A program made the position numbers and the translations under genes. Below are positions 14,299-39,868 of a stretch of 49,061 nt of DNA, piece by piece. A model generated the notes under the pieces. The model was not told where the DNA came from. It made no database searches and was given only the letters and a program-made list of their open reading frames with translations. The stretch's first letter is position 1. Every line of letters begins with the position of its first letter. The stretch is taken from assembly GCA_017623675.1 (NCBI GenBank), contig JAGAOO010000072.1, forward strand, positions 1 through 49,061. Direction: 5' to 3'. The stretch is from Lachnospiraceae bacterium (lineage in GTDB: Bacteria; Bacillota; Clostridia; Lachnospirales; Lachnospiraceae).

Positions 14299-14541
14299 AT
14301 GGAACCAGTTCGTTATCCAAGAGGTCACAATATGTCACCGGGATATAGCAGAGTTTCAAATCCCTCAATGCCTTGCAAGGATAGCTTTCATGATGATATT
14401 GATAGATTTCCGGTAGGCATGTCATATGTGCCTTGGCAATCCTGGGGAGAGTTATATCCACCGGAAAAAGGATTGTGTGAGGGAACCATTTTCATGGATT
14501 TAAACCAAATCTTCTGTGGAAAGAGAGGGAATCGTGGATGA
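14299..14541 (+). CDS. cotJA: Spore coat-associated protein CotJA
   Basis: An 80-aa protein with the CotJA pattern: VGMSYVPWQSWGELYPPEKGLCEGTIF, in which the P-W-Q-x-W-x-x-x-Y core is diagnostic. It is made in the mother cell during sporulation and goes to the inner coat with CotJC. AAGGAAGG precedes the ATG. Its TGA overlaps the cotJB ATG (ATGA). Confidence 0.93.
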   Translation: MEPVRYPRGHNMSPGYSRVSNPSMPCKDSFHDDIDRFPVGMSYVPWQSWGELYPPEKGLCEGTIFMDLNQIFCGKRGNRG

Positions 14542-14795
14542 ACAACATGAATCAAAAACAATTACTCAGATATATCGACGCTGTCAGTCTTGCGCTGGAC
14601 GATGTAACGCTATTCCTCGACACCCATCCTCACAATGCAGAGGCCCTGGAATATTACAACATCTACAAGGAAAAGCGCACACAGGCTGTCAGGGATTATA
14701 CCAGGTTCTTTGGACCATTGAATCGATACAACGTCACCTGTAACAATGAATGGCAATGGAATCAAGGTCCTTGGCCTTGGCAAGGGGAGGTGTAA
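14538..14795 (+). CDS. cotJB: Spore coat protein CotJB
   Basis: An 85-aa protein with the CotJB features: an N-terminal helix LLRYIDAVSLALDDVTLFLDTHP, an ALEYYNIYKEKRTQAVRDYTRFFGPL core and a Trp/Pro-rich tail ending WQWNQGPWPWQGEV. It is needed with CotJA for CotJC assembly in Bacillus. It overlaps cotJA by 4 nt and is followed after 3 nt by the truncated cotJC; GGGGAGG in its 3' end serves as the cotJC ribosome site. Confidence 0.92.
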   Translation: MNNMNQKQLLRYIDAVSLALDDVTLFLDTHPHNAEALEYYNIYKEKRTQAVRDYTRFFGPLNRYNVTCNNEWQWNQGPWPWQGEV

Positions 14796-14798: not shown

Positions 14799-14909
14799 AT
14801 GTGGGTATATGAAAAACGATTACAATTTCCGGTCAGTATTAAAGAAACAAATCCGCAACTGGCACAGGCAATTATATCGCAATACGGTGGTGCCAATGGC
14901 AGGATATAA
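14799..14909 (+). pseudogene. cotJC: cotJC, 5' fragment interrupted at codon 31 by an inserted element
   Basis: The ORF starts MWVYEKRLQFPVSIKETNP and runs to SQYGG, a clear CotJC (manganese-catalase-like coat protein) N-terminus in the expected place after cotJB. After the two glycine codons GGTGGT (14886-14891) homology stops: five foreign residues and a stop follow, giving only 36 aa against about 190 for the family. The missing continuation, GGPDGESGAAMRYLSQRYSM, resumes in the same frame at 22231. I infer that an element inserted at GGTGGT. As it stands this fragment cannot make a working CotJC. Confidence 0.9.
14883..14906 (+). other. attL: left junction of the cotJC element
   Basis: cotJC sequence ends at core GGTGGT (14886-14891); the element side continues CCAATGGCA-GGATATA (14893-14908). 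This half-site is the inverted counterpart of TATATC-TGCCATTGG at the right end (22217-22231), with one extra G. Confidence 0.8.
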
Positions 14910-14920
14910 TTTCAATTGTT

Positions 14921-14964
14921 TTTACTTTCAAATTATTGAAAGTAAACTTTCACTATGATATTCT
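14921..14964 (+). promoter_or_regulatory. Palindrome overlapping a candidate promoter for the AI-2E permease
   Basis: An 11-bp inverted repeat (arms 14921-14931 and 14936-14946, core TTACTTTCAA/TTGAAAGTAA, loop ATTA) lies just inside the element. TTGAAA (14936-14941), 17 nt, TATTCT (14959-14964) form a possible promoter whose -35 is within the palindrome, suggesting operator control. It could alternatively be part of the recombinase site. 14910-15038 holds nothing else I recognise. Confidence 0.45.
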
Positions 14965-15038
14965 GAATATGACTTTGAAATAAGGAAACACTTAACATAT
15001 ATTTTCTATCCTACCGGATTACAGAAAGGAAGTTACAT

Positions 15039-16379
15039 ATGGAACGAAAGGATTTAGAACAAATTATTTTAAAAACCATTATATTTTTAGTAATTGGCGT
15101 ACTGATTGTTATGCATTTTGATTTGGCAATTCAGGGATTACTTATACTTATCGGTTTTATGTCACCAATGTTGCTGGGATTTGCCATAGCTTTTGTAATC
15201 AATGTTATTTTAGTACGTTTGGAAAAAATCTATTTTCCAAAAACCAAAAATCGGTTTATACAAAAAAGCCGCCGTCCGGTTTGTATTCTTCTGGCACTTT
15301 TGATTATTCTACTTGTCATTGCTTTTGTTATTGTCATGGTAATACCGGAGTTGATAGATGCAGTTACCTTGATAACTAAGGAAATATCTGACTCCTATGA
15401 AACGATTCTAAACCAATTAGGAAACCTGATTCACAAGGTTCCACCTTTGGAAGAATGGCTATACACCAATCTGGAAATCGACCTTAAGAATCCGGCAGAA
15501 ATTAATTGGGAAAGCTTTATCGGAAAAGTAGTATCCATGCTGTTAGGAAGTGATGAACCCGGCAAATTGGGAAGCTTTATGGATTCTACTGTAAGCATTG
15601 CCTCCAGCATCGGAAGTGGCATTGTTACCTTCTTTATCGCTTTAGTATTCGGAATCTATGCCCTGTCTTCCAAGGAACGTTTAAGCAGACAGGTAAAGCA
15701 GCTTGTATATGCATACATCCGACCGAAGACAGCAGATAAGATTTATCATGTCTGCCATGTCGCAAATGATACTTTTTCCAACTTTATTGTCGGACAGTGT
15801 ACAGAAGCTGTAATACTGGGTGTGCTCTGTATCATTGGCATGTCCATTTTCCGATTCCCTTGTGCAGTCATGGTTGGTACACTGGTAGGTGCCACTGCCT
15901 TAATTCCGATTATTGGTGCTTATATTGGAGCAATCGTTGGTTCATTAATGGTATTGACACAAAGTGGTCCATGGCAAATGCTATTCTTTATTTTGTTTAT
16001 TATTGTTTTGCAACAGTTGGAAGGAAATTTAATCTATCCAAAGGTAGTTGGCTCTTCCGTGGGTCTGCCCGGTATCTGGGTACTTGCTGCTGTAACAATT
16101 GGAGGCAGTATCAACGGTATCTTTGGCATGCTCTTAGGCGTTCCTACCGCAGCAACCATATATCGGTTGCTGGGAGAAAACAGCCAAAAACGTGTAATGC
16201 ACAGAGTTCAGCAGAATCAAAAGATTCCAACAGATTTATTGAAGGCATTAACACCGGAACCAGAAGCCGTTTCTTCTGAAACAAAATCCGAACCTGAGTC
16301 TGAACAGCAGAATAACAACTCAGATGGGGATGATGTATTAGACGAAATTGTATCAGCTTTGGATACTGATGAAAACTAA
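15039..16379 (+). CDS. AI-2E family transporter (TqsA/PerM-like permease)
   Basis: A 446-aa membrane protein with the AI-2E/UPF0118 layout: paired N-terminal helices (about 10-60), a third at 72-100, an extramembrane domain (105-190), and a C-terminal block of helices (about 195-385) with the conserved IPIIGAYIGAIVG and LLGVPTAATIYRLL motifs. A 60-aa Glu/Ser-rich cytoplasmic tail follows. Family members export small solutes or act as Na+/H+ antiporters; the substrate is unknown. It converges on potD with stop codons overlapping by 4 nt. Confidence 0.9.
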   Translation: MERKDLEQIILKTIIFLVIGVLIVMHFDLAIQGLLILIGFMSPMLLGFAIAFVINVILVRLEKIYFPKTKNRFIQKSRRPVCILLALLIILLVIAFVIVMVIPELIDAVTLITKEISDSYETILNQLGNLIHKVPPLEEWLYTNLEIDLKNPAEINWESFIGKVVSMLLGSDEPGKLGSFMDSTVSIASSIGSGIVTFFIALVFGIYALSSKERLSRQVKQLVYAYIRPKTADKIYHVCHVANDTFSNFIVGQCTEAVILGVLCIIGMSIFRFPCAVMVGTLVGATALIPIIGAYIGAIVGSLMVLTQSGPWQMLFFILFIIVLQQLEGNLIYPKVVGSSVGLPGIWVLAAVTIGGSINGIFGMLLGVPTAATIYRLLGENSQKRVMHRVQQNQKIPTDLLKALTPEPEAVSSETKSEPESEQQNNNSDGDDVLDEIVSALDTDEN

Positions 16380-17434
16380 TTCGCTGCTTTCACTTTCGTC
16401 CACAGTTCTGCAAAGTACTCCTTAATTTCCTGTTCCTGATACCGGAACACTTCATCATTCTCACCCTCAACGTCCGGAAGATATGCACTGTTCCCGGCAA
16501 AATCCTCCTCTGCTGCCTTCGTTCTTGCCTCTACTACCGGAGAAGTATATCCAACTGCTACGGTATTGGCATATGCATGTTCTGCATCCAGCATAAAATT
16601 AATATAGGCATGTGCCAGTTCTACTTCCGTACAATCACTGGTAATAACCATGGCATCCTGCCAGATATTCGTACCTTCCTCCGGCTCGTAGTATTCCAAA
16701 TCTTCATTTTCAGACATAATATAGGCTGCATCACCGGAATATACCACTGCCATTGCTTTGTTACCGGAAATCATGTTATCTATTACATCGTCTCCCGCAT
16801 ATACCGGATTCATGGTATCACGCTGTTCAATTAACCACTGATATGCCTCGTCGATTTCATCTTTGTTGGTGGTATTCATGGAATATCCCAATGCCTTTAA
16901 TGCAATCATGAAGGAATCCCGTTCAGAATCATACATATAGATATCTCCGGCGTATTTTTCATTTCGGAGAATCTCCCATCCATCCTCTAAATCCGCTTCA
17001 TCTACCACTGTAGTATCATATAAGATACCCACTGTACCATAAAAGAACGGAACAGAGTAGGTATTATCCGGATCAAATTCTTCACCCATTACTGCCTCAT
17101 CCAGTCCGTCTGCATTCGGAATCAATGACCAATCGATTGCCTGTAGTCCATCTTCCTTGATCAAGCGTTCAATCATGTAATCAGAAGGTACTAATACATC
17201 ATATGCCTCACCACTCTGAATCTTGGTATACATTGATTCATTAGAATCAAACGTTTCATAGATTACCTTACAGTTATATTCCTTCTCGAAATCTCTTAAC
17301 AAACTGGTATCAATATATTCGCCCCAGCTATAAACCTTTAGTGTCGGTTTGTCTGAACCACATCCGGTCAGCATTCCTGTTAATAATGCGAGTCCTGTTA
17401 TCAGACATAACGCTTTCTTCATCATCTTTTTCAT
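16376..17434 (-). CDS. potD: Spermidine/putrescine ABC transporter substrate-binding lipoprotein PotD
   Basis: A 352-aa lipoprotein with signal peptide and lipobox LLTGMLTGC (Cys25). The PotD/PotF fold is recognised by LKVYSWGEYID, YDVLVPSDYMIERL and VPFFYGTVGILYD. It captures polyamine outside the membrane and passes it to PotBC. It is last in the potA-B-C-D run, 2 nt after potC. Asp/Glu/Trp residues of the polyamine pocket are present in these motifs; spermidine versus putrescine preference cannot be told. Confidence 0.93.
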   Translation of the reverse strand: MKKMMKKALCLITGLALLTGMLTGCGSDKPTLKVYSWGEYIDTSLLRDFEKEYNCKVIYETFDSNESMYTKIQSGEAYDVLVPSDYMIERLIKEDGLQAIDWSLIPNADGLDEAVMGEEFDPDNTYSVPFFYGTVGILYDTTVVDEADLEDGWEILRNEKYAGDIYMYDSERDSFMIALKALGYSMNTTNKDEIDEAYQWLIEQRDTMNPVYAGDDVIDNMISGNKAMAVVYSGDAAYIMSENEDLEYYEPEEGTNIWQDAMVITSDCTEVELAHAYINFMLDAEHAYANTVAVGYTSPVVEARTKAAEEDFAGNSAYLPDVEGENDEVFRYQEQEIKEYFAELWTKVKAAN

Positions 17435-17436
17435 TC

Positions 17437-18264
17437 TTATTCCTCCTTGAGTTCCTGTGGTTTTTCTATTAAAATTGCTTTTCTTTCCCGTTTTTTTCGA
17501 ACCATGATTGGTATAACATTGATTACTACCAAGGTAATGACAATTACCAGAATTACGAGGGTAGACAATGCATTAATGGTCGGGTTGGTTCGTTTCGTCA
17601 TGTTATATACAATAATGGAAATATTAGACACACCATTTCCGGTTACAAAGTAAGAGATTACAAAATCATCAAAGGACATGGTAAATGCCAATAACACCCC
17701 GGCAAAAATTCCTTCCTTTAACATCGGCAGAATAACCTTTGTCAATGCCTGAAAAGGCGTTGCCCCCAAATCCATTGCCGCATTTGCCAGATTGGGATCC
17801 AGATTCCGCACCTTGGGGTATACACTGGTAATCACATATGGTGTACAAAATGCAACATGTGCCAGCAGCATAGTCAGATATCCTTTTTCCATCTTCATGG
17901 AAGAAAACAAAATCATTAATCCAATGGCTGTTACAATATCCGGATTCATAATCGGAATATTGTTGACATTGATTATAACCTCCTTCAAAACCTTACGGGA
18001 CTTGGAAAGACCAATCGCCGTTATAGTTCCCAGAATTGTAGATATTGCAGTTGCCAATAAGGCAATTGTTACGGATACATATACTGCATTCATAATCTCT
18101 CCGTTGGAGAAAAGATTCTCATACCAGCGCAGAGAAAAGCTTTCAAACTTCGTCAGTGATTTTGACGAGTTAAAGGAATATACCATAGTTACCACAATTG
18201 GCAGATAAAGGAAAATAAAGCAAAGTATAATATAGATGACAGGAGCTATTTTTTTCTTCTTCAT
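17437..18264 (-). CDS. potC: Spermidine/putrescine ABC transporter permease PotC
   Basis: A 275-aa permease with six membrane helices (first about 8-30) and the ABC permease EAA loop AAMDLGATPFQALTKVILPML. VVTMVYSFNSS and MSFDDFVISYF are typical of PotC. It pairs with PotB in the membrane channel. Spaced 3 nt from potB and 2 nt from potD. Confidence 0.93.
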   Translation of the reverse strand: MKKKKIAPVIYIILCFIFLYLPIVVTMVYSFNSSKSLTKFESFSLRWYENLFSNGEIMNAVYVSVTIALLATAISTILGTITAIGLSKSRKVLKEVIINVNNIPIMNPDIVTAIGLMILFSSMKMEKGYLTMLLAHVAFCTPYVITSVYPKVRNLDPNLANAAMDLGATPFQALTKVILPMLKEGIFAGVLLAFTMSFDDFVISYFVTGNGVSNISIIVYNMTKRTNPTINALSTLVILVIVITLVVINVIPIMVRKKRERKAILIEKPQELKEE

Positions 18265-18267
18265 GCT

Positions 18268-19095
18268 CTATTCCTCCTCTATCTCGTCTTTATCAATTCG
18301 TTTCATCGAGGTAATTGCAATTAGTATAATAAATGCAAGAATTACGGATATGGCACTGCCAAAGTTCCAATCGCCCACAGAAATGAACTGATTCTCTATT
18401 AAATTACCAATTAACATATACTGTCCGCCACCTAACAGCTTCGGAATAACGAAGGTGGAAATAGACAACAGAAAGGTCATGATAATTCCATTTAACACAC
18501 CCGGAATGGACAGCTTAAAGGTCACCCTCCAAAATGTCTGGAATCGATTGGCTCCCAAGTCCATGGCTGCCTCATGTAGAGAATGATCAATCTTACATAA
18601 AGAGGTGTGTATCGGAATAACCATAAACGGAAGCAAATCACTTACCAATCCTATGACAACTGCGAAGTCAGTATACATCATCGTAACCGGTTCCAGTCCG
18701 AAAAGGCCTAAAATTGCATTAATAATACCATTGTCTGACAGTAGACAAATCCATGCATAGGTACGAAGCAGGGTATTGATCCACATAGGAATCGTAACAA
18801 GCAACACCAGTAAGCTCTGTACTCTTTCGCTGAATTTGGTAATCAGGTATGCCAGAATATATCCTAAAAACAGACAGATTCCCACGGACAACAAACCTAG
18901 CTGGAAGGATTTCACAAACACCGCCACATAGATGGGTTCTGTCATTTTCTTAAAATTCTCTAAGGTGAACTGGATGTTAATCAAATCATTTCCACCGGTT
19001 GTAACAGAGTATAATACAATTAACAACAGTGGCACGAGAATCATAACAACTGCCCAAACCATATAAGGTCGAATTAATTTCACAAAATGTTTCAT
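18268..19095 (-). CDS. potB: Spermidine/putrescine ABC transporter permease PotB
   Basis: A 275-aa permease with six helices and the EAA-type loop EAAMDLGANRFQTFWRVTF. WINTLLRTYAWICLLSDNGIIN is characteristic of PotB. It forms the heterodimeric channel with PotC and is coupled to PotA. AAGGAG lies 8 nt before the ATG; 12 nt separate it from potA. Confidence 0.93.
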   Translation of the reverse strand: MKHFVKLIRPYMVWAVVMILVPLLLIVLYSVTTGGNDLINIQFTLENFKKMTEPIYVAVFVKSFQLGLLSVGICLFLGYILAYLITKFSERVQSLLVLLVTIPMWINTLLRTYAWICLLSDNGIINAILGLFGLEPVTMMYTDFAVVIGLVSDLLPFMVIPIHTSLCKIDHSLHEAAMDLGANRFQTFWRVTFKLSIPGVLNGIIMTFLLSISTFVIPKLLGGGQYMLIGNLIENQFISVGDWNFGSAISVILAFIILIAITSMKRIDKDEIEEE

Positions 19096-19107
19096 CGCAG
19101 CTCTCCT

Positions 19108-20154
19108 TTATTCCCAATCCATACGGTACATAACATGAATATCATCCGGCCCGAACTTCAATCCTACCTGCAAGCCTACTTCAAAATAATCCGTTGTATG
19201 AATCATGTAATCCCGATGTTCTGTTTCTACAACTATTTCATGATGTACGCCTTTGAATACTATGGACTTTACTGTTCCTGTAAGTTTTGCTTCCTCCGGC
19301 TTAACAATATCAATATCCTCCGGACGAATTACCACTTCCACACATTCATTTTCCTTAAAGCCTTTGTCCACACATTCAAATTCGAATCCATCAAAGGATA
19401 CCAGCAAATCCTTCACCATGATTGCTTCTACAATATTGGATTCTCCGATAAAATTAGCAACAAAGCGGTTCTCCGGCTCATTGTAAATATCCTCCGGAGT
19501 TCCTACCTGCTGAATGATTCCTTCATGCATAACCACAACTGTATCAGACATAGACAAGGCTTCTTCCTGGTCATGGGTGACAAAAATGAAGGTAATTCCT
19601 ACTTCCTTCTGAATCTTCTTTAACTCACCCTGCATTTCCTTCCTTAGCTTGGCATCCAAGGCTCCTAACGGTTCATCTAATAACAGAACCTTCGGTTCAT
19701 TCACCAAAGCCCGTGCAATGGCAACCCGTTGCTGCTGACCGCCGGAAAGTTTGGTGACATCCCGCTTGTCAAACCCTTCCAAGCCCACCAGCTTCAGCGT
19801 TTTCTTAACTTTATGCTCAATCAGGCTTTTATCCATTTTCTTAATTTTCAAACCAAAGGCTACATTATCATATACATTTAAGAATGGAAATAATGCGTAT
19901 TTCTGGAATACGGTATTAACCTCCCGCTTATAAGGGGGAATCTTAGAGATATCCACGCCGTCAAATAATACCTCCCCACTGCTTGGCTCGTCAAAGCCTG
20001 CAATAATCCGCAGAGTCGTGGTTTTTCCACAGCCGGAAGGTCCAAGCAATGTCAAAAACTCGTTTTCGTAAATTTTCAAATCTATCCCTTTTAATACCTG
20101 CTGGTCGTCAAAGTTCTTTGTTAATCCTTTTAACTCAATTAATACGTCGCTCAT
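19108..20154 (-). CDS. potA: Spermidine/putrescine ABC transporter ATPase PotA
   Basis: A 348-aa ATPase: Walker [10 protein letters not shown] (about 38-46), Q loop in [13 protein letters not shown], signature [15 protein letters not shown], Walker [13 protein letters not shown], switch His in VTHDQEEAL, and a C-terminal TOBE-like regulatory region (about 240-348). I place the start at 20154 ([10 protein letters not shown]) because AGGAGG lies 6 nt before it; an upstream start would add 16 residues without a ribosome site. It energises polyamine import. Confidence 0.94.
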
Positions 20155-20227
20155 CGCCAACCTCCTAAACTTGTGAATTCTTCTGCTTAATATAACCGGC
20201 ATACTTAATTATCTTTTTTCCATTCTA

Positions 20228-20761
20228 TCAAAAACTTGGTGGTGTTGATACCCAAAGCAACACCGCACCACAGTCGGATGTCAAATAATGCTTATGAGAA
20301 GGTGTGAAATAAAATGACTCCTCTTTCTTCGCCTTAAACACCTGACTGCCAAGATGAATCTCCACACTTCCCTTCAACACATATCCGAATTCCTCTCCTT
20401 CATGAGGATTATCAGGATAGGTAGAGCCACCGGGTTCGATGGTTACCAGAATCGGCTCCATCATGTTCTTTTGGGCATTAGGAATAATCCATTCTATGGT
20501 ATTCTTTAACTCCGAATCCTTCTTTTCAAAAAAGTCCCCTTTGCGAAAGACTACCTGCTTATCCTCAGAATCATTAAAAAATGTTTTTAAATCCGTACCC
20601 AGACATTGAAGAATGTCTACCAACGTTGCAATGGATGGCGAGGTCAAATCCCGCTCCACTTGGGAAATAAAACCTTTTGTCAACTCTGCCCTGTCTGCCA
20701 ATTCTTCCTGTGTCAGGTTCTTCTGTATTCGTAATGCCTTGATTTTCTTACCAATTTCCAT
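20228..20761 (-). CDS. XRE-cupin regulator of the polyamine transport operon
   Basis: A 177-aa protein: N-terminal XRE helix-turn-helix (about 1-58, IGKKIKALRIQKNLTQEELADRAELTKGFISQVERD) and a C-terminal cupin (about 105-175, GGSTYPDNPHEGEEFGYVLKG...F). PuuR-type regulators with this plan sense polyamines or related metabolites and control transport or catabolism. It is the first gene of the potABCD transcript, 73 nt before potA. The start at 20761 (MEIGKK) has AGGT upstream; an earlier in-frame ATG would include the operator. Confidence 0.88.
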   Translation of the reverse strand: MEIGKKIKALRIQKNLTQEELADRAELTKGFISQVERDLTSPSIATLVDILQCLGTDLKTFFNDSEDKQVVFRKGDFFEKKDSELKNTIEWIIPNAQKNMMEPILVTIEPGGSTYPDNPHEGEEFGYVLKGSVEIHLGSQVFKAKKEESFYFTPSHKHYLTSDCGAVLLWVSTPPSF

Positions 20762-20783
20762 CTCATTTACCTGTTTCTTAATT

Positions 20784-20849
20784 CTAAACTCCAAGTTTAG
20801 TTTTGCTAAACTCCAAAACAAATTATACATAGTTTTTATGGAACGTCAA
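20784..20849 (-). promoter_or_regulatory. Promoter and three-half-site operator of the regulator-potABCD operon
   Basis: On the minus strand TTGACG (20844-20849), 16 nt, TATAAT (20822-20827). Just downstream, half-sites CTAAAC (20784-20789), GTTTAG (20795-20800) and CTAAAC (20806-20811) alternate in orientation every 11 bp. CTAAACTCCAA is repeated exactly 22 bp apart. The sites cover the expected transcription start, fitting autorepression by the XRE protein. Confidence 0.7.
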
Positions 20850-20941
20850 TAGTAATTTCAAATTTTGTTTCATTTTTACGAAATACATACTTTTTTTTGT
20901 TCTTTCATAGACTACAACAAGATTATGAAACGGTGATATCT

Positions 20942-22198
20942 ATGAATCAAACTACAAGGATTGGTGCCGCCTACATTCGGGTTTCAACAGAAGATCAGAT
21001 GGAATTCTCGCCGGACAGCCAGCTAAAACGAATTCAGGAATACGCCGGACAACATAACATTCGGATACCGGAGGAATATATTTTCGTAGATGAAGGAATC
21101 AGTGGCAGAACTGCCAGTAAGCGACCTGCTTTCCAAAATATGATTCGTCTCGCCCGAACCAGACAGGCATTTCAGACCATTCTTGTCTGGAAATTCTCCC
21201 GTTTTGCAAGAAACCGGCAGGACAGCATCTTTTATAAATCCATGCTTCGTAAGGATTGTGGAATTGAGGTAATTTCCATTACAGAACCTCTCAGTCATGA
21301 CCCTACTTCTATGTTAATTGAAGCACTGTTAGAAGCCATGGATGAATATTATTCCATCAATCTGGCACAGGAGGTAAGACGTGGGATGCAGGAACGCTTT
21401 TCCCGTGGGAAAGCAATTTCAATTCCTCCTTTTGGATACCGGATGGGAGAGGAATCCTTTGAACCCGACCCCGAACAGGCAAAGTGGGTAACATATATGT
21501 TTGAGGCTTATGCAGCGGGTGATAGTCTGAGTCATATTGCAGATATTTTAGAGCAAGCCGATGTACTTACAAACCGGGGTAATCTATTTCAACCCAGAAG
21601 TATTACATATATTCTGATGAATCCGGTATATATTGGTAAGCTGAGAAAAAGTATCCATCCGAAGCAACAGGATTCCTCTGTCCTTACCACATATAACAGA
21701 AGGTATGATAGATTTTATGAACACTCCCCAATGGATTACGTTGACGGGATTCATCCTCCACTGATTGAACAATCTCTTTGGAATCAGGCACAGGAACGTC
21801 GGCACACAGAGCATTTATCTTATGCCGGTTCTCATGCTTGTCCTTTATCCTCCCCATATGCTGATTTATCATCTAATTCTTCTCCGGTATATTTTCTGCA
21901 AGGCTTGGTACATTGCAGCCATTGTGGTGCTTATCTGGTACACATTCATAAAGGTACTGCCTTTCAATGCAGCAACTATAACCACGGAAAATGTAAATCG
22001 TCCCACTATGTTAAAAGTGAACTGTTGGAGCTTCTTGTCTGTGAATCTGTTACTCCCCTCCTTCCTCCGGCTATTGCGTTTAGTATTCATAATCCACATG
22101 CAACGGCAGAAGAGAAAAATGAGATATTGAAACAGATTGGCAGAACTATTATTTACGACAGGGAATTGAAAAAAGTAGGATTTGCCAGTGATAACTAA
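20942..22198 (+). CDS. Serine recombinase of the cotJC element
   Basis: A 418-aa serine recombinase. The resolvase domain (about 6-150) has catalytic Ser15 in AAYIRVSTEDQ and the conserved arginines in VWKFSRFARNRQD. The recombinase domain (about 160-265) includes IPPFGYRM and the ILMNPVYIGKLRK motif. The zinc-ribbon region (about 340-370) has CSHC and a second Cys pair in FQCSNYNHGKC. It resembles SpoIVCA-type integrases but is shorter than the usual 480-550 aa, lacking most of a C-terminal coiled coil. The ATG at 20942 is chosen over an upstream alternative start. It ends 32 nt before the right att core, so it presumably integrates and excises this element. Confidence 0.92.
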   Translation: MNQTTRIGAAYIRVSTEDQMEFSPDSQLKRIQEYAGQHNIRIPEEYIFVDEGISGRTASKRPAFQNMIRLARTRQAFQTILVWKFSRFARNRQDSIFYKSMLRKDCGIEVISITEPLSHDPTSMLIEALLEAMDEYYSINLAQEVRRGMQERFSRGKAISIPPFGYRMGEESFEPDPEQAKWVTYMFEAYAAGDSLSHIADILEQADVLTNRGNLFQPRSITYILMNPVYIGKLRKSIHPKQQDSSVLTTYNRRYDRFYEHSPMDYVDGIHPPLIEQSLWNQAQERRHTEHLSYAGSHACPLSSPYADLSSNSSPVYFLQGLVHCSHCGAYLVHIHKGTAFQCSNYNHGKCKSSHYVKSELLELLVCESVTPLLPPAIAFSIHNPHATAEEKNEILKQIGRTIIYDRELKKVGFASDN

Positions 22199-22212
22199 CT
22201 GTCCAGCCTTAG

Positions 22213-22236
22213 CCACTATATCTGCCATTGGGTGGT
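22213..22236 (+). other. attR: right junction of the cotJC element
   Basis: Element-side TATATC-TGCCATTGG (22217-22231) runs into core GGTGGT (22231-22236), after which cotJC coding resumes in the same frame as at attL. Confidence 0.8.
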
Positions 22237-22338
22237 CCGGATGGTGAATCCGGTGCTGCCATGCGGTATTTATCCCAGCGATATTCTATGAAAAATGCCA
22301 GAGTTGCAGGGGTATTAACGGACATCGCAACAGAGGAA
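22231..22338 (+). pseudogene. cotJC: cotJC, middle fragment
   Basis: Read in the frame set by GGTGGT, this stretch encodes GGPDGESGAAMRYLSQRYSM followed by KNARVAGVLTDIATEE, matching CotJC directly after its SQYGG segment (family motif YGGxDGELxxxxRYLxQRY...LLTDIGTEE). It is the continuation of the 5' fragment at 14799. Homology stops at GAGGAA (22338); the next residues do not match the expected (L/F)AH(L/M)EM. No start codon of its own. The rest of cotJC (about 120 codons) is not in the window and may lie beyond the far end of the ICE. Confidence 0.85.
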
Positions 22339-22411
22339 TCTGCACCGAGAAGATATCTGTTTATAGGCAGAGAGAAACCCATTCTCCCTGCCTCTCCATC
22401 AATTATCTGCC

Positions 22412-22600
22412 TCATCTGCCTCGAAAGAACCTTTCAATTTGGGTTACTATCATATCGAATTCACGAGGATGCATAATTATCCATCGGAACGCAAATATAA
22501 TTATCAGAATTAGACAAACAGTCAGAACCAGCAACACAAATGTAACTAAAAGTGATGTCTGTACCGATGTCAACTGAAACAGTAATTCTTCGTAATCCAT
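22412..22600 (-). CDS. Small single-pass membrane protein
   Basis: A 62-aa protein starting MDYEELLFQL with one long hydrophobic helix (about 17-43) and a basic C-terminus ending RFFRGR. GGAGGGG lies before the ATG. It is the leftmost gene of the conjugative element. No family recognised; the position suggests an accessory element protein. Confidence 0.5.
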   Translation of the reverse strand: MDYEELLFQLTSVQTSLLVTFVLLVLTVCLILIIIFAFRWIIMHPREFDMIVTQIERFFRGR

Positions 22601-22667
22601 AGAACCCCTCCTTTCAATTCTATAATGATACAGAATCAAAAGGATGTCAAAAAAAACGCAAAAAAAG

Positions 22668-23324
22668 TTATTTATAGTCCGCCAGCATCTTTTTATGCTG
22701 CTTAATTTCTTTCTTTGTACGTGGCACCTTATAAATTATATTGCCATACTTAAGCATAGGCGGATGTTCCAAAGTTGGATTGCACTTATACCCTTTTTCC
22801 ATAAGCATTTCGGCAAATTCGCACATATGCCAAATCACACCGTCCACATAAAAATAATTATCGTCAATATACCGAATGGATAACCGTCTTTCACGATTTT
22901 GTGAATCTACAAGCACGACATATCCACTATTTTCAATTTGAACCATCACCTGCCATCCGGTATTAATGATATAAACCACATTCGGATGAGGTGGAAACTG
23001 TCTTTTACCAAATCGGTATGCACCTTTTGGTACAGCTTGTGCTAAAGTATATGAATTATTAAGCCATGTAACCAAATTCATATCACGGGTGGATATCAGA
23101 TTGCAGAAAGCCGCCAAATCTCCTCTGCAGTAATCGTTAACCGCAAGCGCAATCTGATTACCGCGAATATTCATGTCATCAATACTTAACAGGAGCTGCA
23201 GTTGTTCCCAGTCAGTTTTTTCATTATCCAGCATTGCACGAAGTACATCTGAAGCTTCTTTGTTACCTTCAGATAAAATCTCAATCACTGTATTAATATT
23301 TCCGGTTTTAATGTATTCTCTCAT
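22668..23324 (-). CDS. ICE-encoded protein of unknown function
   Basis: A 218-aa soluble protein, not recognised. The first 90 residues are helical and acidic; the middle (about 95-170) is rich in short beta strands (VVYIINTGWQVMVQI, GYVVLVDSQNRERRLSIRYID). TGGAGGT precedes the ATG. Last larger gene of the conjugative operon, separated from the DUF5688 gene by a hairpin. Probably an accessory function expressed with transfer genes. Confidence 0.55.
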   Translation of the reverse strand: MREYIKTGNINTVIEILSEGNKEASDVLRAMLDNEKTDWEQLQLLLSIDDMNIRGNQIALAVNDYCRGDLAAFCNLISTRDMNLVTWLNNSYTLAQAVPKGAYRFGKRQFPPHPNVVYIINTGWQVMVQIENSGYVVLVDSQNRERRLSIRYIDDNYFYVDGVIWHMCEFAEMLMEKGYKCNPTLEHPPMLKYGNIIYKVPRTKKEIKQHKKMLADYK

Positions 23325-23340
23325 GATTTACCTCCAATCA

Positions 23341-23372
23341 AATAAGCCACAGCACTTATGCCATGGCTTATT
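23341..23372 (-). terminator. Weak hairpin between ICE genes
   Basis: AATAAGCCA (23341-23349) and TGGCTTATT (23364-23372) form a 9-bp stem with a 14-nt loop between the DUF5688 stop and the next gene. No strong T tract on the coding strand, so termination is uncertain. Confidence 0.4.
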
Positions 23373-23375
23373 TTA

Positions 23376-24326
23376 CTATCTGCTTTTGCTTTTTTCTTTA
23401 ATTGGCGAGTCTGCAGTCAGACATTTCACCTGTCGTTTCGTCGCATCGTATCCATATACTTCATTAGATAAGAAATCCTGCGGTTGTAATACTGATGAAT
23501 TAACTTCTTTCACCATGCTTTGATACTCTTCCAGTTCATTAGACTCCGCTTTTTTCACTGCCAATACCTCATGTATAGATGAAGGAAGTATCGCAAAATC
23601 ATTGCCGGAAAAATACTTCTCGCTGACACCGGCTAGAAACTCTTTATCTGTGATACAGGACGCACCATCTATTCCCTCTTTGGTTGTAAGAACCACCATA
23701 ACCGGAGAATCCTCAAAGTTTATCCCCACATCCTCACTATCCATTAATTCATTCATCTTCTCATAAAGATGCATCGAAACCAATTCCTCTTTCATGTTCT
23801 CGGATGCCACTTTGTCAATTGCATCCAGAGTCACGCCCCACCGTTCCATGATTTCCTTTGTCACAGCAACACTGCCTCTTCCTTCCCCATCTGAGAATAC
23901 CTTCGCACGATAGACAACTGCTAAATCTGACAGTTTCTTATGTGGCATAGTTTTAAGCATGTCCTTATTTGTTTCAAAGTTTATCACTCGCTTGTAGATA
24001 CTATTTTTCATCTCATTATAATTTACAATCCTGTCTGCAATGTTTTCACTATGTTTTAATACATGCTGTGCATTATTAATAACCGCTGCCTTTACCTTCT
24101 CTATGGTTTCATTATAAGAGACTGCACCAATATGATATCCCTGGTAAAAATCATCTAAGTATAATACAGGAGCCACATTTGAATCCTCATTTGCTCGAAT
24201 ATTTACACCATGCAACACCTGACCGTTATTCTTTGTTACTTCATTGTACTCAAGTTTATATCCAATCAATTCCGACTGAACTTCATCAATAAGAGTCCTA
24301 AAGAATTTTTCCTTACTTTGCATCAT
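23376..24326 (-). CDS. DUF5688 family protein
   Basis: A 316-aa soluble protein with the DUF5688 pattern common on Clostridia conjugative elements: an N-terminal GVNIRANEDSNVAPVLYLDDFYQGYHIG segment, a central LAVVYRAKVFSDGEGRGSVAVT block, and a late FAILPSSIHEVLAV segment. Function unknown. Its ATG overlaps the 3' end of a 36-codon ORF by 14 nt, suggesting coupled translation. Confidence 0.72.
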   Translation of the reverse strand: MMQSKEKFFRTLIDEVQSELIGYKLEYNEVTKNNGQVLHGVNIRANEDSNVAPVLYLDDFYQGYHIGAVSYNETIEKVKAAVINNAQHVLKHSENIADRIVNYNEMKNSIYKRVINFETNKDMLKTMPHKKLSDLAVVYRAKVFSDGEGRGSVAVTKEIMERWGVTLDAIDKVASENMKEELVSMHLYEKMNELMDSEDVGINFEDSPVMVVLTTKEGIDGASCITDKEFLAGVSEKYFSGNDFAILPSSIHEVLAVKKAESNELEEYQSMVKEVNSSVLQPQDFLSNEVYGYDATKRQVKCLTADSPIKEKSKSR

Positions 24327-24423
24327 TCTTATCCCCCTTCTTATCCTTCAACAATCTCTCTCCATATACAGCTAAGCGCTGCTTTTGTGCTTCTGAAATT
24401 TCTTTCTTATTCTGAGTTTCCAT
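24313..24423 (-). CDS. 36-aa charged small protein upstream of the DUF5688 gene
   Basis: An ORF METQNKKEISEAQKQRLAVY ending DKKGDKNDAK with an AAGGAG ribosome site 9 nt before the ATG. Strongly charged and helical. It overlaps the DUF5688 start by 14 nt, so it could be a real small protein or a leader ORF that couples translation. Confidence 0.5.
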   Translation of the reverse strand: METQNKKEISEAQKQRLAVYGERLLKDKKGDKNDAK

Positions 24424-24437
24424 TACTCTTCTCCTTT

Positions 24438-24788
24438 CTATCTACTCTTTTGCTTTCCTTTTTTCTTTGTCTCATTCTTCTCATCCGGCAAATCCACTTG
24501 TTTCGCCTGCTCCTGATTAGGGGGCATCTCATCCATCACTTTCTGATATGTATTTAGAATCTCATTTACTATTTCCGTATAAAGTTCCTTATTTAACGGA
24601 AATGCCACATCTTCATAAGTACCATCCGCTTTTGCTCTGGAAGGGAACGAAACAAAATTCTTTCCATCTTTTCCTTCCATAACTCGAATACCTTTAATCA
24701 CAAACGACTCATCCAATGTGAAGCTTCCTATTGCTCTTACTGCATTGTCGGAATTAATAACACTCAACCGTACATCTGTTACCTTCAT
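24438..24788 (-). CDS. spoVG: SpoVG family protein encoded on the ICE
   Basis: A 116-aa protein. Residues 1-85 match SpoVG closely in pattern: MKVTDVRLSVINSDNAVRAIGSFTLDESFVIKGIRV, FVSFPSRAKADGTYEDVAFPLN, then a helix EIVNEILNTYQ. The last 30 residues are a charged tail. SpoVG is a small nucleic-acid-binding global regulator of sporulation, septation and virulence genes. On this element it sits between the VirD4 gene and accessory genes, so it may regulate element or host genes. Confidence 0.85.
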   Translation of the reverse strand: MKVTDVRLSVINSDNAVRAIGSFTLDESFVIKGIRVMEGKDGKNFVSFPSRAKADGTYEDVAFPLNKELYTEIVNEILNTYQKVMDEMPPNQEQAKQVDLPDEKNETKKKGKQKSR

Positions 24789-24877
24789 AAAAATCAGCCT
24801 CCTGCTATAATAATTTTATATATAAATCATACTGAACTTGACATCTCTTTTCCACATAATCACAGTATCTTCAAGTA

Positions 24878-26914
24878 TCACCCTAAAAAACCATTTGCTT
24901 TTTGATATGCAACAATATACTGTTCTGCAGTTTGTTCATTCTTTAACACTGACAGGACCTGTCCATCGGTTAATCCGGACATAACAGCCTTTTGTAACAA
25001 TGCCTGCTGGTTTTCTGAAAGGGTTTCTTTCCGGAGCAGATGTTCCAACGTATCATATTTATCCCAATCAATTGTAAGTACAGGATGTTCACGGTGAATA
25101 CTTTTCTTTGATTCAATTTGCTCTAATACACTCTGGATTTCATCAATAGTCATTGTTGTTATTTTTATTTTATCCGGATATTCCTTCTGATTTGCTTCAT
25201 ACTCTGCAAGTTCTTCCGGAGATAATGCTTTCACCTCATCTTCACTAAATACCGGCAAAGGAGCATGCCTGTATATACCTAACTCTTTCGCATGAACGTA
25301 TTCCGCTGCATGAAAGGTTTGATACTTTAAATCCAAAACCGGATACTGACCTCTCACGAACACAAGACACTTGCTGTTATCCAGATGTTTTACCTCTTCC
25401 GATGTCATTAACTTTCTTCCAACTGTATCCGTACTCTGTGAGGAAGAACCATGAGAACCCCGGCTGACAGAAGAAGATTTTTTATAAATTGTTCCATCAC
25501 CAAGAACATCCGATATATACTCAAATGTTGATTTCTCATTACCGCCGAGATACACCATGACATCACAGTTGCCGGGTATTGATTCCCAGTCGTCTTTATA
25601 CATAGCTTTAATCTGTGCCATGTTTTGGATTATGACAATTGCAGACAGATTCCGGGAACGTATTGTAGACAGCAGCGACAGGAAATTGTGAGGCAGGGCA
25701 ATATTCGCAAATTCATCCAGGACAAACGTTACCGCTATAGGCAGTTCGCCATGATAGACCTGGTCTGCAAGATAATACAGTTCCCGGAACATTTGTGTAT
25801 ATAACATTCCCGGAACAAAATTATAAGTCGTGTCTTCATCTGGAATAACACAGTATATAATGGTCTTTGTCTTGCCATCCAAATCCTTTCCGGTTCCAAG
25901 CATTCCAATATCGAAATCATCACGCGAAAAAATCCGGCGTAAATCCGGATTGTCAAACGGAGCAAGCCGGGCATTTGCACTGATAATAATTGACCGTACC
26001 GTATCACCAGCACCACGCATTACCCGGTTATAATTAATCTTTGCCGGATGTCCGTCTGGAAGATCATCCATTAAAACATCCAATTCCGTATCATTCCCTT
26101 CCTCATCAAACTCTGCCATAGCGAGAAGGTCTAACACTTTATTCATGTTACGTTCCGTTGGCGGACATTCCATCCATACATAGAAAAAAAGTGCCTGCAG
26201 CAACATACTTTCTGACTTTTCCCAGAACGGATCCGATGAAGTGGAACCCTTCGGCGTTGTATTTGCAATCAGATTTGTTATCAGTCGTGGCACATCTGAC
26301 TGTTGTTTTAAATACTCAAACGGATTATAACAATCACTTTCTTTCATATTAATAAGATTAAGAACTTTCACGATGTAGCCTTGTTCCTTCATGTAATGTG
26401 CTGTATCTGCAAGTAGCTCCCCTTTGGGGTCTGTCACTACATAAGATGCGTTTGCCTGGAACAGATTCGGGCGGACTTCAAATAATGATTTTCCAGCACC
26501 GGAACCACCAATAATAAAAGTATTGTTATTTATTCGTGTCTTTTTTGAATTAAGGCTGATTCGGAGTGCATTGGAATATATTCTGTTATTGTGACAATCA
26601 TCACGATCGGCGAATCGTTTTGTGATTTTTTCCACATTTCCCCATTGGGCAGTGCCGTATTCTTTACCAGGCATGAATCGCTGTTTGGATTTATCATTCA
26701 AATAAATCATAAACACAACTCCGGCTCCGATTAAAAGAAAAATGGGTGTATAGATGTTAAAATACCACCCGAACGGCTTCTGCATGACAGCAGTTAAATT
26801 CTCAACAAATATAAAAATCGTGACACCCTTTTCCCATGCTCCAGCAAGCAGATAGGCGATGTATTCAATTATAATTCCTATCAGGATATAAACCCATATT
26901 GAAGTCTTTTTCAT
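24878..26914 (-). CDS. VirD4/TraG-type conjugation coupling ATPase
   Basis: A 678-aa type IV coupling protein: two N-terminal membrane helices (about 7-28 and 52-72), Walker A IIGGSGAGKS (about 133-142), an ADPF-rich TraG core, and Walker B FVLDEFANIA. It docks the relaxase-DNA complex to the secretion channel and pumps DNA. GGAGG lies before the ATG. Its gene contains a one-mismatch copy of the ICE palindrome (25086-25100). Confidence 0.93.
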   Translation of the reverse strand: MKKTSIWVYILIGIIIEYIAYLLAGAWEKGVTIFIFVENLTAVMQKPFGWYFNIYTPIFLLIGAGVVFMIYLNDKSKQRFMPGKEYGTAQWGNVEKITKRFADRDDCHNNRIYSNALRISLNSKKTRINNNTFIIGGSGAGKSLFEVRPNLFQANASYVVTDPKGELLADTAHYMKEQGYIVKVLNLINMKESDCYNPFEYLKQQSDVPRLITNLIANTTPKGSTSSDPFWEKSESMLLQALFFYVWMECPPTERNMNKVLDLLAMAEFDEEGNDTELDVLMDDLPDGHPAKINYNRVMRGAGDTVRSIIISANARLAPFDNPDLRRIFSRDDFDIGMLGTGKDLDGKTKTIIYCVIPDEDTTYNFVPGMLYTQMFRELYYLADQVYHGELPIAVTFVLDEFANIALPHNFLSLLSTIRSRNLSAIVIIQNMAQIKAMYKDDWESIPGNCDVMVYLGGNEKSTFEYISDVLGDGTIYKKSSSVSRGSHGSSSQSTDTVGRKLMTSEEVKHLDNSKCLVFVRGQYPVLDLKYQTFHAAEYVHAKELGIYRHAPLPVFSEDEVKALSPEELAEYEANQKEYPDKIKITTMTIDEIQSVLEQIESKKSIHREHPVLTIDWDKYDTLEHLLRKETLSENQQALLQKAVMSGLTDGQVLSVLKNEQTAEQYIVAYQKANGFLG
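25086..25100. repeat. Degenerate ICE palindrome inside the VirD4 gene
   Basis: TGTTCACGGTGAATA differs by one base from the 15-bp palindrome core. Possibly chance; noted because three other intragenic copies occur. Confidence 0.4.
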
Positions 26915-26941
26915 AATACCTCCATACTTAATTTAAAAATA

Positions 26942-26967
26942 AAAAACCCATCCGCAGATAGGTTTTT
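26942..26967. terminator. Weak bidirectional hairpin upstream of the VirD4 gene
   Basis: AAAAACC (26942-26948) and GGTTTTT (26961-26967), 12-nt loop, between the 298-aa gene and the VirD4 gene. Few G-C pairs. Confidence 0.4.
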
Positions 26968-26978
26968 AATATCACAAC

Positions 26979-27875
26979 TTATTTGATTTTTCCACTCTGT
27001 ACTTTTGGTGTTTGTGTTTTAGCAGCAAATGGTTTCATTGTTCTGGTACGATAGTGGACTGAATATAATTCTTTCGCTGTTTTCATGCCTTTTGAAGTTC
27101 CGTCTGGTCCAAACACCTCAAGTTTACTGTTTGGGTCAGTAAATACAAAATATGTTTTTTCATTATCCAGCAAGAACAACTTATCCACCGGCATCCTCAC
27201 ATAATCATCTGTACGTGGAATCCGGCTTTCAATATAATCGTCAGTTACACTATGCACCATTTTCTTATTTATTGTAAATGTCTGTAAATCCGGATTACTC
27301 AAGCACTTCTCATATTCGCCCATATTCATGAACCGCTTCTGTTCCGGCGATAAATCCTTTTCCGGTTTTGACATTTTCATCTTCTTAATTTCTTCATCAT
27401 ACTCGGCTTTCTTATCCTCCGTTGCATTATCAACGTATTCCTGTGGCGTTACCATTTTAAAACTTTCATTCTGTATCAGCCCCATCTTTTCCGCCAACTG
27501 GATTACCCGCGGTGATGCATTCGTTGGAAACATTATCTCTCTTTTTCCATCTTTAACGTTCAGGTCAGAGGCTTCGCAATATAACACGCCCCATTCCTTC
27601 ATTGCACTTTTTACTTCCTGTAATCGCTGTTCGTCCACCTGTATCATCATGACATCGCCACCAGTGACCTTCATCAGTTTGTCTACATTGGTTTCACCGG
27701 AAACTTTCTCTTTCAGATACTGCTCCCGGATGGACTGGACAAAATATAATGCACTTCTCAGTCCTTCCACTGTTCCAGATGCAATTCTAACGGCGATTTC
27801 CCCTACTTCGCATGGTACTTTGATAATCTCTACTGGTGCTTTTGCTATCTCTATTGCTGCTTGTACTTCTTCCAT
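26979..27875 (-). CDS. ICE accessory protein of unknown function
   Basis: A 298-aa protein, not recognised with confidence. The N-terminus (1-60) is helical with alternating hydrophobic residues (IVKVPCEVGEIAVRIASGTVEG style). A short alpha/beta domain with VDEQRLQEVKSAMKEWGVLYCEA follows, and the C-terminal half is basic. It lies directly upstream of the VirD4 gene, a place often taken in Gram-positive conjugative elements by PcfB/DUF3801-like relaxosome accessory proteins. I offer that only as a guess from position. AAGGAGG precedes the ATG. Confidence 0.55.
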   Translation of the reverse strand: MEEVQAAIEIAKAPVEIIKVPCEVGEIAVRIASGTVEGLRSALYFVQSIREQYLKEKVSGETNVDKLMKVTGGDVMMIQVDEQRLQEVKSAMKEWGVLYCEASDLNVKDGKREIMFPTNASPRVIQLAEKMGLIQNESFKMVTPQEYVDNATEDKKAEYDEEIKKMKMSKPEKDLSPEQKRFMNMGEYEKCLSNPDLQTFTINKKMVHSVTDDYIESRIPRTDDYVRMPVDKLFLLDNEKTYFVFTDPNSKLEVFGPDGTSKGMKTAKELYSVHYRTRTMKPFAAKTQTPKVQSGKIK

Positions 27876-27996
27876 GGTTAATTCCTCCTTGACTGTTTTT
27901 TAATTTAATCTCTTGCTCTGTAATCAGGCGCTGGTTGCGAACAGTCTGCTTTGTCTGCTCTTTCATAAGGCGTTTTACTTCCTCCAAATTTTCCAA
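27787..27996 (-). CDS. Possible small charged protein (TTG start)
   Basis: A 69-codon ORF starting TTG one base after the stop of the preceding gene, with GAGGAGG upstream. It begins LENLEEVKRLMKEQTKQTVRNQ. Its last third overlaps the next gene by 89 nt in another frame and becomes Ser/Arg-rich, so only the first part looks protein-like. Real or not, translation here could deliver ribosomes to the next start. Confidence 0.3.
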   Translation of the reverse strand: MENLEEVKRLMKEQTKQTVRNQRLITEQEIKLKNSQGGINHGRSTSSNRDSKSTSRDYQSTMRSRGNRR

Positions 27997-27997
27997 G

Positions 27998-28816
27998 CTA
28001 TCCCTCCTCACTTTCATCATATTCATCTTCCAATTCCTCATCTTCATAGGAATCCAATTCATCCTGTTGAACCTCTAGTTCATCCTCTGGTGGCTTTTGT
28101 GGCTTTTCCTGAACGTTCTGAGGAACGTTGTAATGGTTTCTCGCTTCATACAGCAGACGAAGTTGTTTCATGGTTTGTGCCGAGTTTTCGGGTTTGGCAA
28201 TTAGCTGTATCTGCTCTTCCGGCAAGTTTGCTGAATATGCTTCTGTCAGTTCCTGTAACTGCTCCGGATTATATTTTCCTTTCTCAATCAGACTTCGGAT
28301 TTCATCCTTCGCTGTTTTTTTTCCGGAGAACAAAAAGGCATTTCTTTTTCTATCCTGTTCGCCGTGAACACTTTTTAGTTGTAGAAGAACGCTTTTTAAT
28401 AATTCAGCATTCTTGCTTTCTGCCACTTGGAATTCATTTTGAATACTTCTTAAAAACTCTTCCTGCCGAGAATTCATTGCTCTATTAGTTACAATCATAT
28501 CATCTGATAATTGTTGCAGACGTTGAACCTTTGCATTCACTTGTTGGAATAAAAGTGAGATATCTTCTCCTATAAGGTAGCGTTTTCTCATTTGTTTCAT
28601 CTGTTCCGGTGATATTTCTGCAGTATAGTAGTCTTCTATTTCATCCAGCGAAATTCCGTCACATAAAGCAGTTCTGATTTCATTCATTTGCTCCGGGGTG
28701 TATTGCTCCTTATGCTCTTGCAGATAGTCGACAGCCTCTTTCGATAACTGTAGTTTTGCAAGGGTTATCTGCATCTGCTTTTTTAACTGTTCATTTTTTG
28801 ATAATTCTTCTTCCAT
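27998..28816 (-). CDS. Helical acidic ICE protein of unknown function
   Basis: A 272-aa protein from MEEELSKNEQLKKQM. Almost entirely helical, with Gln/Glu-rich coiled-coil stretches (about 90-150) and two similar short modules YTPEQMNEI...DGISLDEIEDYYTAEISPEQM and YNPEQLQELTEAY...LPEEQIQLI. The tail is extremely acidic (EDEELEDEYDESEEG). It lies next to the relaxase gene, so an accessory relaxosome role is possible. Contains a one-mismatch ICE palindrome at 28356. The start is set by GAGGTGGAG before the second ATG. Confidence 0.55.
   Translation of the reverse strand: MEEELSKNEQLKKQMQITLAKLQLSKEAVDYLQEHKEQYTPEQMNEIRTALCDGISLDEIEDYYTAEISPEQMKQMRKRYLIGEDISLLFQQVNAKVQRLQQLSDDMIVTNRAMNSRQEEFLRSIQNEFQVAESKNAELLKSVLLQLKSVHGEQDRKRNAFLFSGKKTAKDEIRSLIEKGKYNPEQLQELTEAYSANLPEEQIQLIAKPENSAQTMKQLRLLYEARNHYNVPQNVQEKPQKPPEDELEVQQDELDSYEDEELEDEYDESEEG
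28356..28370. repeat. Degenerate ICE palindrome in a coding region
   Basis: TGTTCGCCGTGAACA, one mismatch to the core, flanked by CTTTTT as in full copies. Confidence 0.45.
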
Positions 28817-39866: not shown

Positions 39867-39868
39867 TT

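Follow-up and report, generated by a model that had tools for sequence, protein, structure and literature searches.

How could a gut bacterium make a spore-coat protein whose gene lies in pieces? The question is posed by a 49,061-nucleotide stretch of DNA from a Lachnospiraceae bacterium (contig JAGAOO010000072.1 of assembly GCA_017623675.1), referred to here as the window, which is contig C4 of draft genome G000 (84 contigs, 93.8% complete). The spore-coat gene cotJC (Mn-catalase type) is split in this genome by a 7.3-kb element (element 1) and by a second element that seems to continue on another contig, C36. Our reading, to which a probability of about 0.8 is given, is that skin-like elements interrupt cotJC and would be excised in the mother cell. 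It draws on the split itself, the core repeats and dyads at the element ends, relatives in which the site is empty or the gene singly split, purifying selection on cotJC, and promoter-motif enrichment.

The split of cotJC and its two elements

Element 1 lies inside the cotJC reading frame and carries a site-specific recombinase (rec1), with short direct core repeats at both ends (Table 1). Its cargo includes a potABCD-like operon for polyamine uptake. The copies of GGTGGT at 14886 and 22231 are 7,345 bp apart and in the same frame, the repeat being exact over 6 bp only. As an earlier reading of this DNA (the sequence-only reading) had described, the flanking pieces rejoin in frame, ...ISQYGG joined to PDGESGAAMRYL..., and the element-side ends, when joined, form the dyad TATATC-TGCCATTGG-GTGGTG-CCAATGGCA-GGATATA. 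Unexcised, the frame of piece 1 stops at a TAA (14907-14909). CotJC does resume at 22231, as that reading held, for 36 codons; the second split, at 22330, had been overlooked. The third piece is on C36, and the three pieces joined encode a stop-free CotJC of 215 amino acids (aa). Only these three complementary, single-copy pieces were found when the draft genome was searched, which rules out a separate paralogue at 22231.

Judged from its genes alone, element 2 is an integrative and conjugative element (ICE). It carries a relaxase, a coupling protein, a VirB4-type ATPase and, on C36, the integrase rec2; ParA/ParB-like genes on C36:1-15363 were named by eye. The end of C4 and the start of C36 overlap by 14 bp, and an 839-aa open reading frame (ORF) spans the joint; if the joint is correct, element 2 measures about 42.1 kb. 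Its joined ends give the dyad AGATACCTTCTTGGCACAGA-GGAA-TCTGCACCGAGAAGATATCT, in which pairing was counted by eye at 16 of the 20 arm positions. C36 was assigned to the cotJC locus because the congener G400 keeps the order NUDIX-PGM-cotJA-cotJB-cotJC1-element-cotJC2-HD-ATPase on one contig; HD and ATPase genes lie 3' of piece 3 on C36, as in the G400 locus. A conjugative element serving as a skin-like element would be unusual.

Matches to cotJC were obtained in all eight genomes of the genus. The gene is intact in G399 (codons 1-211 in one match), which supplies the uninterrupted relative and the empty site for element 1. It is split at codon 31 only in G400 and G402, at codon 65 only in G106, and at both in G000 and G401. 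Two assemblies are fragmented: G397 has splits at codons 31 and ~136 on separate contigs, and G398 yielded only pieces 1-39 and 25-66. Rec2 of G000 shares only 56-59% identity with its counterparts in G401 and G106.

Further observations were made in these genomes. G106 holds a stray cotJC fragment (codons 165-203; L050, G106:C26, 1504-1611, minus strand), although its main cotJC covers that part. In G399 (L185, G399:C34, 4228-8815) a potD homologue lies ~3 kb from the intact cotJC, with no match to recombinase 1 on the stretch, and the order and strands of the cotJ, PGM and HD genes differ from G400. Together these differences are possibly a trace of cargo exchange or of an inversion.

Across the family, cotJC was matched in 243 of 397 genomes. 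Sixty-eight of these, picked by eye for weak best matches, were searched again and the places read by hand. Both sides of at least one interruption were seen in 52, at codons ~31 (13 genomes), ~65 (31), ~136 (12) and ~170 (8), and 11 of the 52 have at least two sites. The middle stretch is missing in three (G011, G173, G338), and in some drafts the two sides are on different contigs. Of the other 16, G055 has an intact gene, G037 a frameshift, and eight show a single half; six are ambiguous. With G000 and G106, at least 54 of the 243 cotJC-positive genomes carry a split gene, a lower bound, since the one-by-one check covered the chosen 68 plus the genus genomes.

As a control, the window gene that we take to be yyaC-like (YyaC) was searched for in the same 397 genomes. 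At least 145 matched, and the seven with two matches were searched again; six of the seven second matches were weak (E 5e-6 or worse), and in G281 an interval of 78 bp separates two pieces that share an open frame. No yyaC-like gene split by insertion was seen among the matching genomes.

Recombinases, insertion sites and a partner protein

A search with the recombinase sequence alone returned 71 loci, which a script rule sorted into 35 with both cotJC flanks, 26 with one and 10 with none. Two of the last ten (L055, L106) hold a mis-sorted piece, and eight gave no cotJC match in the DNA fetched. In L125, a one-flank locus, the piece ends at codon 65 and the recombinase is of the codon-65 group. 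Five genus genomes recur among the named loci with identical recombinases, so the two sets overlap. The 35 two-flank loci include those recorded under Lachnoclostridium sp. An196 (L072), Lacrimispora saccharolytica An817 (L064) and Faecalicatena contorta ET52 (L099). All 35 two-flank loci split cotJC at codons 30-31 (site A); the split thus exceeds chance, and the same type of element occurs at the same codon in relatives. In the 71 loci the neighbouring cotJB was matched 44 times at E < 1e-3, each time over nearly its full length and never in part. GG is still encoded in 34 of the 35 left and 33 of the 35 right core copies. In L073, L059 and L091 the two cores differ at wobble positions and keep the GG pairs, which fits the earlier proposal that GG is the probable crossover dinucleotide. 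Site-A elements of the 35 loci range from 1.24 to 10.7 kb, with the recombinase in either orientation. Cargo was recognised by eye in six of ten listed elements (Trk, AdhE, SulP, xanthine dehydrogenase/MobA, amidase or carboxypeptidase); homologues of the potB-like permease of element 1 are 85-92% identical in its five nearest elements. The element-side arms were joined at 35 sites (the window and 34 of the 35 two-flank loci, L099 being omitted), and pairing averaged 68%; shuffled arms and the rejoined attB each gave 40%. The window itself scored 11 of 22, apparently since one arm is 1 base longer.

Domains also support the skin-like reading of the 7,345-bp unit, together with the core repeats and the empty site in G399. 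PF00239 (resolvase) and PF07508 (recombinase) exceed their cut-offs in rec1 and rec2, and the zinc ribbon does so in rec1 only. Invariant alignment columns of rec1 include R13, S15, R87 and R90, so that catalytic-domain residues are retained. The tail after the last Cys/His match is 62 aa long, against ~145 in long relatives. A structure model of rec1 (pLDDT 84.8, pTM 0.58) has tail helices at 359-373, 376-383 and 389-397 and no long coiled-coil hairpin in the tail. The best PDB fold matches were serine integrase-DNA complexes (top 9dxd, E 4e-16).

A recombinase tree of 116 rows (109 different) was built quickly and has long branches. Site labels need 5 changes on it (minimum 4), against a mean of 37 for shuffled labels, of which 0 of 200 were as low; the recombinase clade largely predicts the insertion site. 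One clade of 73 rows is all codon 31, codon 136 (6 rows) and codon ~170 (7 rows, two being the same G142 gene) form one clade each, and codon 65 comprises two main clades and the stray long branch of L120. A codon-65 clade also contains three more Ruminococcus rows, to which the script had given the label A. In L088 (R. flavefaciens; reverse complement, 1332-9470) cotJC is split near codon 10, the parts ~8.1 kb apart, and the recombinase there belongs to this codon-65 clade. This is perhaps a fifth site, represented by this one locus; no such split was seen in L076 or L094, which have extra recombinases of the same clade. At the codon-136 splits of L164, L165 and L166, searches with rec1 and rec2 found nothing at E 1e-8; a recombinase of a different type may be at work.

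A protein of 60-110 aa beginning M..LxALPS is encoded in many site-A elements, beside an att end and often divergent from the recombinase. This LPS protein, which travels with many long recombinases, is a candidate recombination directionality factor (RDF). Of the 14 members in the alignment, ten match PHROG 26314, where no function is assigned; in Pfam the member shown had no match above cut-off and no member any match better than E 0.008, and a model (pLDDT 83) found no PDB fold match better than E 3.8. Among the 35 two-flank loci all 18 with a long recombinase have a full partner, whereas of the 17 with a short one, lacking the coiled coil, one has a full partner (L063), six a truncated one and ten no match (Fisher p 4e-9); L095, one of the ten, has a faintly similar 58-aa ORF. 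As distinct rows including the window, the counts are 18 long with partner, 1 short with partner and 15 short with none. 'Long' was judged from length and tail, the structure model being that of rec1. The rows are not independent, because the tree has few well-supported changes: long and short change in ~6 steps (5-7 in bootstraps), of which well-supported branches force only 2. Some findings weigh against the link. Outside the 35, 19 long recombinases had no partner match in the DNA fetched and 5 had one, most of these stretches holding only part of an element; the short L086 has a full partner. In L191 (G074, both flanks) the element is whole, and its long recombinase stands without any partner match. 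The link is therefore strong within the 35 loci and not universal. The 1.24-kb elements of L119 (7240-8480) and L120 (6340-7570) consist of a ~254-aa serine recombinase and a small protein inside cotJC; this protein stands in the partner's place and resembles it, that of L120 matching DUF6514.

The LPS profile built from cotJC elements finds a protein (E 5e-21) beside the integrase of PQ006094.1, a complete circular caudovirus that was not among the sequences used to build it. Its integrase is 48% identical over 84% of rec1, and the same attP-like dyad, with GGAGGT, lies between the integrase and the LPS gene. In L204, an IMG/VR viral contig of 42.8 kb, cotJC codons 28-65 (5282-5395) lie beside an integrase, an apparent prophage in cotJC. 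Relatives of rec2 were not confirmed in any viral contig. L209 (852-878, minus strand) was the sole viral contig with the site-A attP pattern and has no match to recombinase 1 or LPS; this match is chance or unexplained.

Selection, promoters and the case for excision

For joined cotJC, the ratio of non-synonymous to synonymous substitution (dN/dS) was 0.026-0.070 for every pair of genus genomes that gave a computable dS. In pairs with G400 the first 29 codons are element-derived, an alignment error, and two G000 codons beside the second core are element-side; reliance was therefore placed on codons 66-213 (0.020-0.069, with dS ~1-3 or saturated) and on pairs without G400. Where both genes are split at codon 65 the values were 0.033 (G000-G106), 0.057 (G000-G401) and 0.042 (G106-G401). 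The cotJC pieces are under strong purifying selection.

Promoters were scored as CATANAHT or CATANNNTA within ~100 bp 5' of an ORF, after the SigE/SigK promoter consensus. Background on it was also taken from PMC517825 and PMC5025042, both in part. Upstream regions were left out if they were duplicates, were shorter than 100 bp or lacked a start that the script could find. In Lachnospiraceae the motif precedes 14 of 31 site-A recombinases (2.2 +- 1.5 in shuffled DNA), against 13 of 204 other ORFs in the same loci (Fisher p 2e-7) and 31 of 551 other ORFs in all loci. It precedes 9 of 21 site B recombinases (1.9 shuffled) and 13 of 29 partner genes (2.2 shuffled), the intergenic DNA in the last test being partly common with the recombinase test. 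A SigE/SigK-type -10 element, CATACTATA, lies 52 bp 5' of cotJA in its promoter region. SpoIVA was above cut-off in 8/8 genus genomes. All eight also have sigma-K-family matches, one of them above the strict cut-off; that of G000 scored 286.8 bits against a cut-off of 298.65, which no control genome reached either.

The same-codon splits in so many relatives suggest that excision of DNA would restore cotJC at sporulation. We infer the following course, with element 1 as the skin-like gene-intervening element at codons 30-31 and the ~42-kb ICE as the second, at codons 63-65. The mother-cell promoter would fire and rec1, at the right end of element 1, would be made; it would pair the two GGTGGT sites, cross over at GG and release a 7,345-bp circle. 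Rec2 would likewise excise the ICE at ACAGAGGAA. Only after both excisions would transcription from the cotJA promoter give a message for the complete CotJC, and, the elements being kept in the forespore, the progeny would lose nothing. Having neither coiled coil nor partner protein, rec1 would work without a directionality factor. LI integrase without its coiled coil can carry out intramolecular attP x attB and attL x attR recombination, so that partner-free excision by rec1 is plausible by analogy; phiC31 integrase without it is inactive (PMC5814800, in part), and the effect varies between enzymes (PMC10754689, in part).

A wider view is offered tentatively, as one that could well prove wrong. 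In gut Clostridia cotJC might be a gene routinely spliced at the DNA level. No fewer than four fixed codons, perhaps a fifth as well, would have been occupied by distinct lineages of recombinase, and a single gene (G173) probably has up to three of them interrupted. The codon-31 lineage might derive from a phage integrase accompanied by an LPS directionality partner (PHROG 26314) and turned, perhaps more than once, into a partnerless one-way intramolecular excisase without coiled coil, under a mother-cell promoter. Intermolecular integration would have been lost, and the element would be a resident DNA intron gathering metabolic genes.

Several points weigh against excision in the mother cell. 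The joined attP pattern of an excision product was absent from all eight genus assemblies, which is expected of vegetative DNA, yet gives excision no support either. No RDF was recognised in element 1, the window having no LPS-profile match and no divergent small ORF beside rec1; an unrelated or host-encoded factor is conceivable. Outside Lachnospiraceae, motif enrichment before site-A recombinases was not clear (5/33 against 2.3 shuffled), and the promoter test covers sites A and B, with no usable upstream row at codon 136 and one at ~170. In L116 rejoining would give R at codon 30, and the recombinase frame is broken; therefore not every copy of an element need be functional. The low dN/dS could be partly ancestral if the insertions are recent or were replaced, and replacement is conceivable because the rec2 proteins of the genus have diverged so far. 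Since cotJC was not detected in 154 of the 397 family genomes, it may be dispensable.

An unlikely alternative is that these are ordinary mobile elements using a conserved gene as attachment site, which excise and move in growing cells and repair cotJC as a by-product without developmental control. The kindred integrase and dyad of the caudovirus, the cotJC codons of L204 and the conjugative nature of element 2 speak for it. Phage or transfer genes, however, were not recognisable by eye in element 1 or in ten listed site-A elements (of the 71 loci), and the motif enrichment and the purifying selection on split cotJC tell against it. Recombinases without a coiled coil are also perhaps poor at joining separate molecules, intermolecular recombination by such integrases not having been detected (PMC5814800, in part).

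Very unlikely is a dead insertion, with the elements permanently in place and cotJC no longer a working gene. The genomes without a cotJC match would accord with this, as would damaged copies (the L116 recombinase in two frames, that of L099 only 275 aa long), but dN/dS between split genes is 0.02-0.07 with dS near or over 1, and both the catalytic-domain residues of rec1 and the exact core repeat are kept. An assembly chimera or paralogue is practically negligible: the window and C36 are draft contigs joined over 14 bp, yet G400 has the whole locus on one contig, the single-contig genomes G282, G319 and G391 are among those with split cotJC, ruling out an assembly artefact, and the G000 pieces are complementary.

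Table 1. Positions of the features of the cotJC locus (numbering of the window unless C36 is given)
Feature	Position	Strand	Basis or remark
cotJA	14299..14541	+	ORF; homologue beside cotJB/cotJC in relatives
cotJB	14538..14795	+	ORF; 74-91% identity in five congeners compared
cotJC piece 1, codons 1-31	14799..14891	+	PF05067, 26.3 bits, just below cut-off 27
Core GGTGGT, left copy (attL of element 1)	14886..14891	+	repeat comparison
Element 1	14892..22230	.	7,345 bp counted core to core; cores, genus and recombinase relatives
AI-2E family transporter (cargo)	15039..16379	+	PF01594
potD-like polyamine-binding protein (cargo)	16376..17434	-	PotD model best, below NCBIfam cut-off
potC-like permease (cargo)	17437..18264	-	ORF; named by position beside potD/potA
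potB-like permease (cargo)	18268..19095	-	ORF; named by position
potA-like ATPase (cargo)	19108..20154	-	NF043075 and TIGR01187 above cut-off
Helix-turn-helix-cupin regulator (cargo)	20228..20830	-	PuuR-like, below NCBIfam cut-off
Putative SigE/SigK-type promoter	20887..20914	+	ATACTT, 13 bp, CATAGACTA; before rec1
rec1, large serine recombinase, 418 aa	20942..22198	+	resolvase, recombinase and zinc-ribbon domains; no coiled-coil tail
Core GGTGGT, right copy (attR of element 1)	22231..22236	+	repeat comparison
cotJC piece 2, codons 30-65	22231..22338	+	36 codons of CotJC
Core ACAGAGGAA, left copy for element 2	22330..22338	+	right copy at C36:15364
Element 2, left part (ICE)	22339..49061	.	seems to continue into C36:1-15363
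VirD4-type coupling protein of ICE	24878..26914	-	PF02534
MobA/VirD2-type relaxase of ICE	28864..30186	-	PF03432
VirB4-type ATPase of ICE	41190..43556	-	PF19044 and PF03135
rec2, second large serine recombinase	C36:13775-15313		ends element 2, then cotJC piece 3
cotJC piece 3, codons 63-215	C36:15364-15825		same genome, other contig; after rec2

Comparison with known systems

In a literature search that mostly lacked subscription papers and saw its sources in part, no report of cotJC as host gene of such elements was found. The interrupted sporulation genes reported there are sigK, spsM, spoVFB, spoVR, gerE and yabG. In C. difficile, phi027 adjoins a CotJC-like gene and is not stated to interrupt it (PMC11222575, in part); sporulation genes on gut mobile elements are reported without mention, in the part seen, of catalase or spore coat (PMC6907783).

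The domains of rec1 are those of the A118/LI, phiC31 and SPbeta (SprA/YokA) integrases, from which rec1 differs by its missing coiled-coil tail. The fdxN element, with its recombinase XisF, also undergoes developmental excision, in another host and process. The NCBIfam XisF model matches rec1 at 84.5 bits and rec2 at 122.9 bits; membership was rejected, both scores being far below its cut-off of 375 bits.

Skin in sigK of B. subtilis and C. difficile is alike in its large serine recombinase, its short core repeat and the interruption of a mother-cell gene with exact rejoining (PMC5025042, PMC517825, both in part), the rejoining here being predicted. The host gene of skin is a sigma factor and here a coat-protein gene; unlike skin, element 1 has 7.3 kb and no recognised phage genes, and several separate sites in one gene are used across species. 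C. difficile skin needs CD1234, whereas no directionality-factor gene was found in element 1. Similar, too, is gin in gerE of B. cereus ATCC10987, a non-prophage gene-intervening element with a serine recombinase that is excised during sporulation and that has also been placed in B. subtilis 168; it differs in its 28.6 kb, three recombinases, the RDF GirX, its Bacillus host and its one site (PMC5595907, in part). SPbeta in spsM, vfbin in spoVFB, vrin in spoVR and yin in yabG likewise lie inside sporulation genes, but are prophage-like, in other host genes, with one element per gene (PMC4191935, PMC10747680, both in part).

Annotation may record split cotJC genes as missing or defective. Both the partner protein and the recombinases, taken with their att sites, are tools that can be put to the test. 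The interruptions of sporulation genes described previously, in the sources seen in part, are single elements, one per gene, whereas here a single coat gene carries interruptions in no less than a fifth of the cotJC-positive genomes sampled from a gut family. The same few codons, taken by several recombinase lineages, amount to natural replicates. They could be used to study what makes mother-cell genes carry such elements, and by what route a mobile integrase could turn into an enzyme that only excises.

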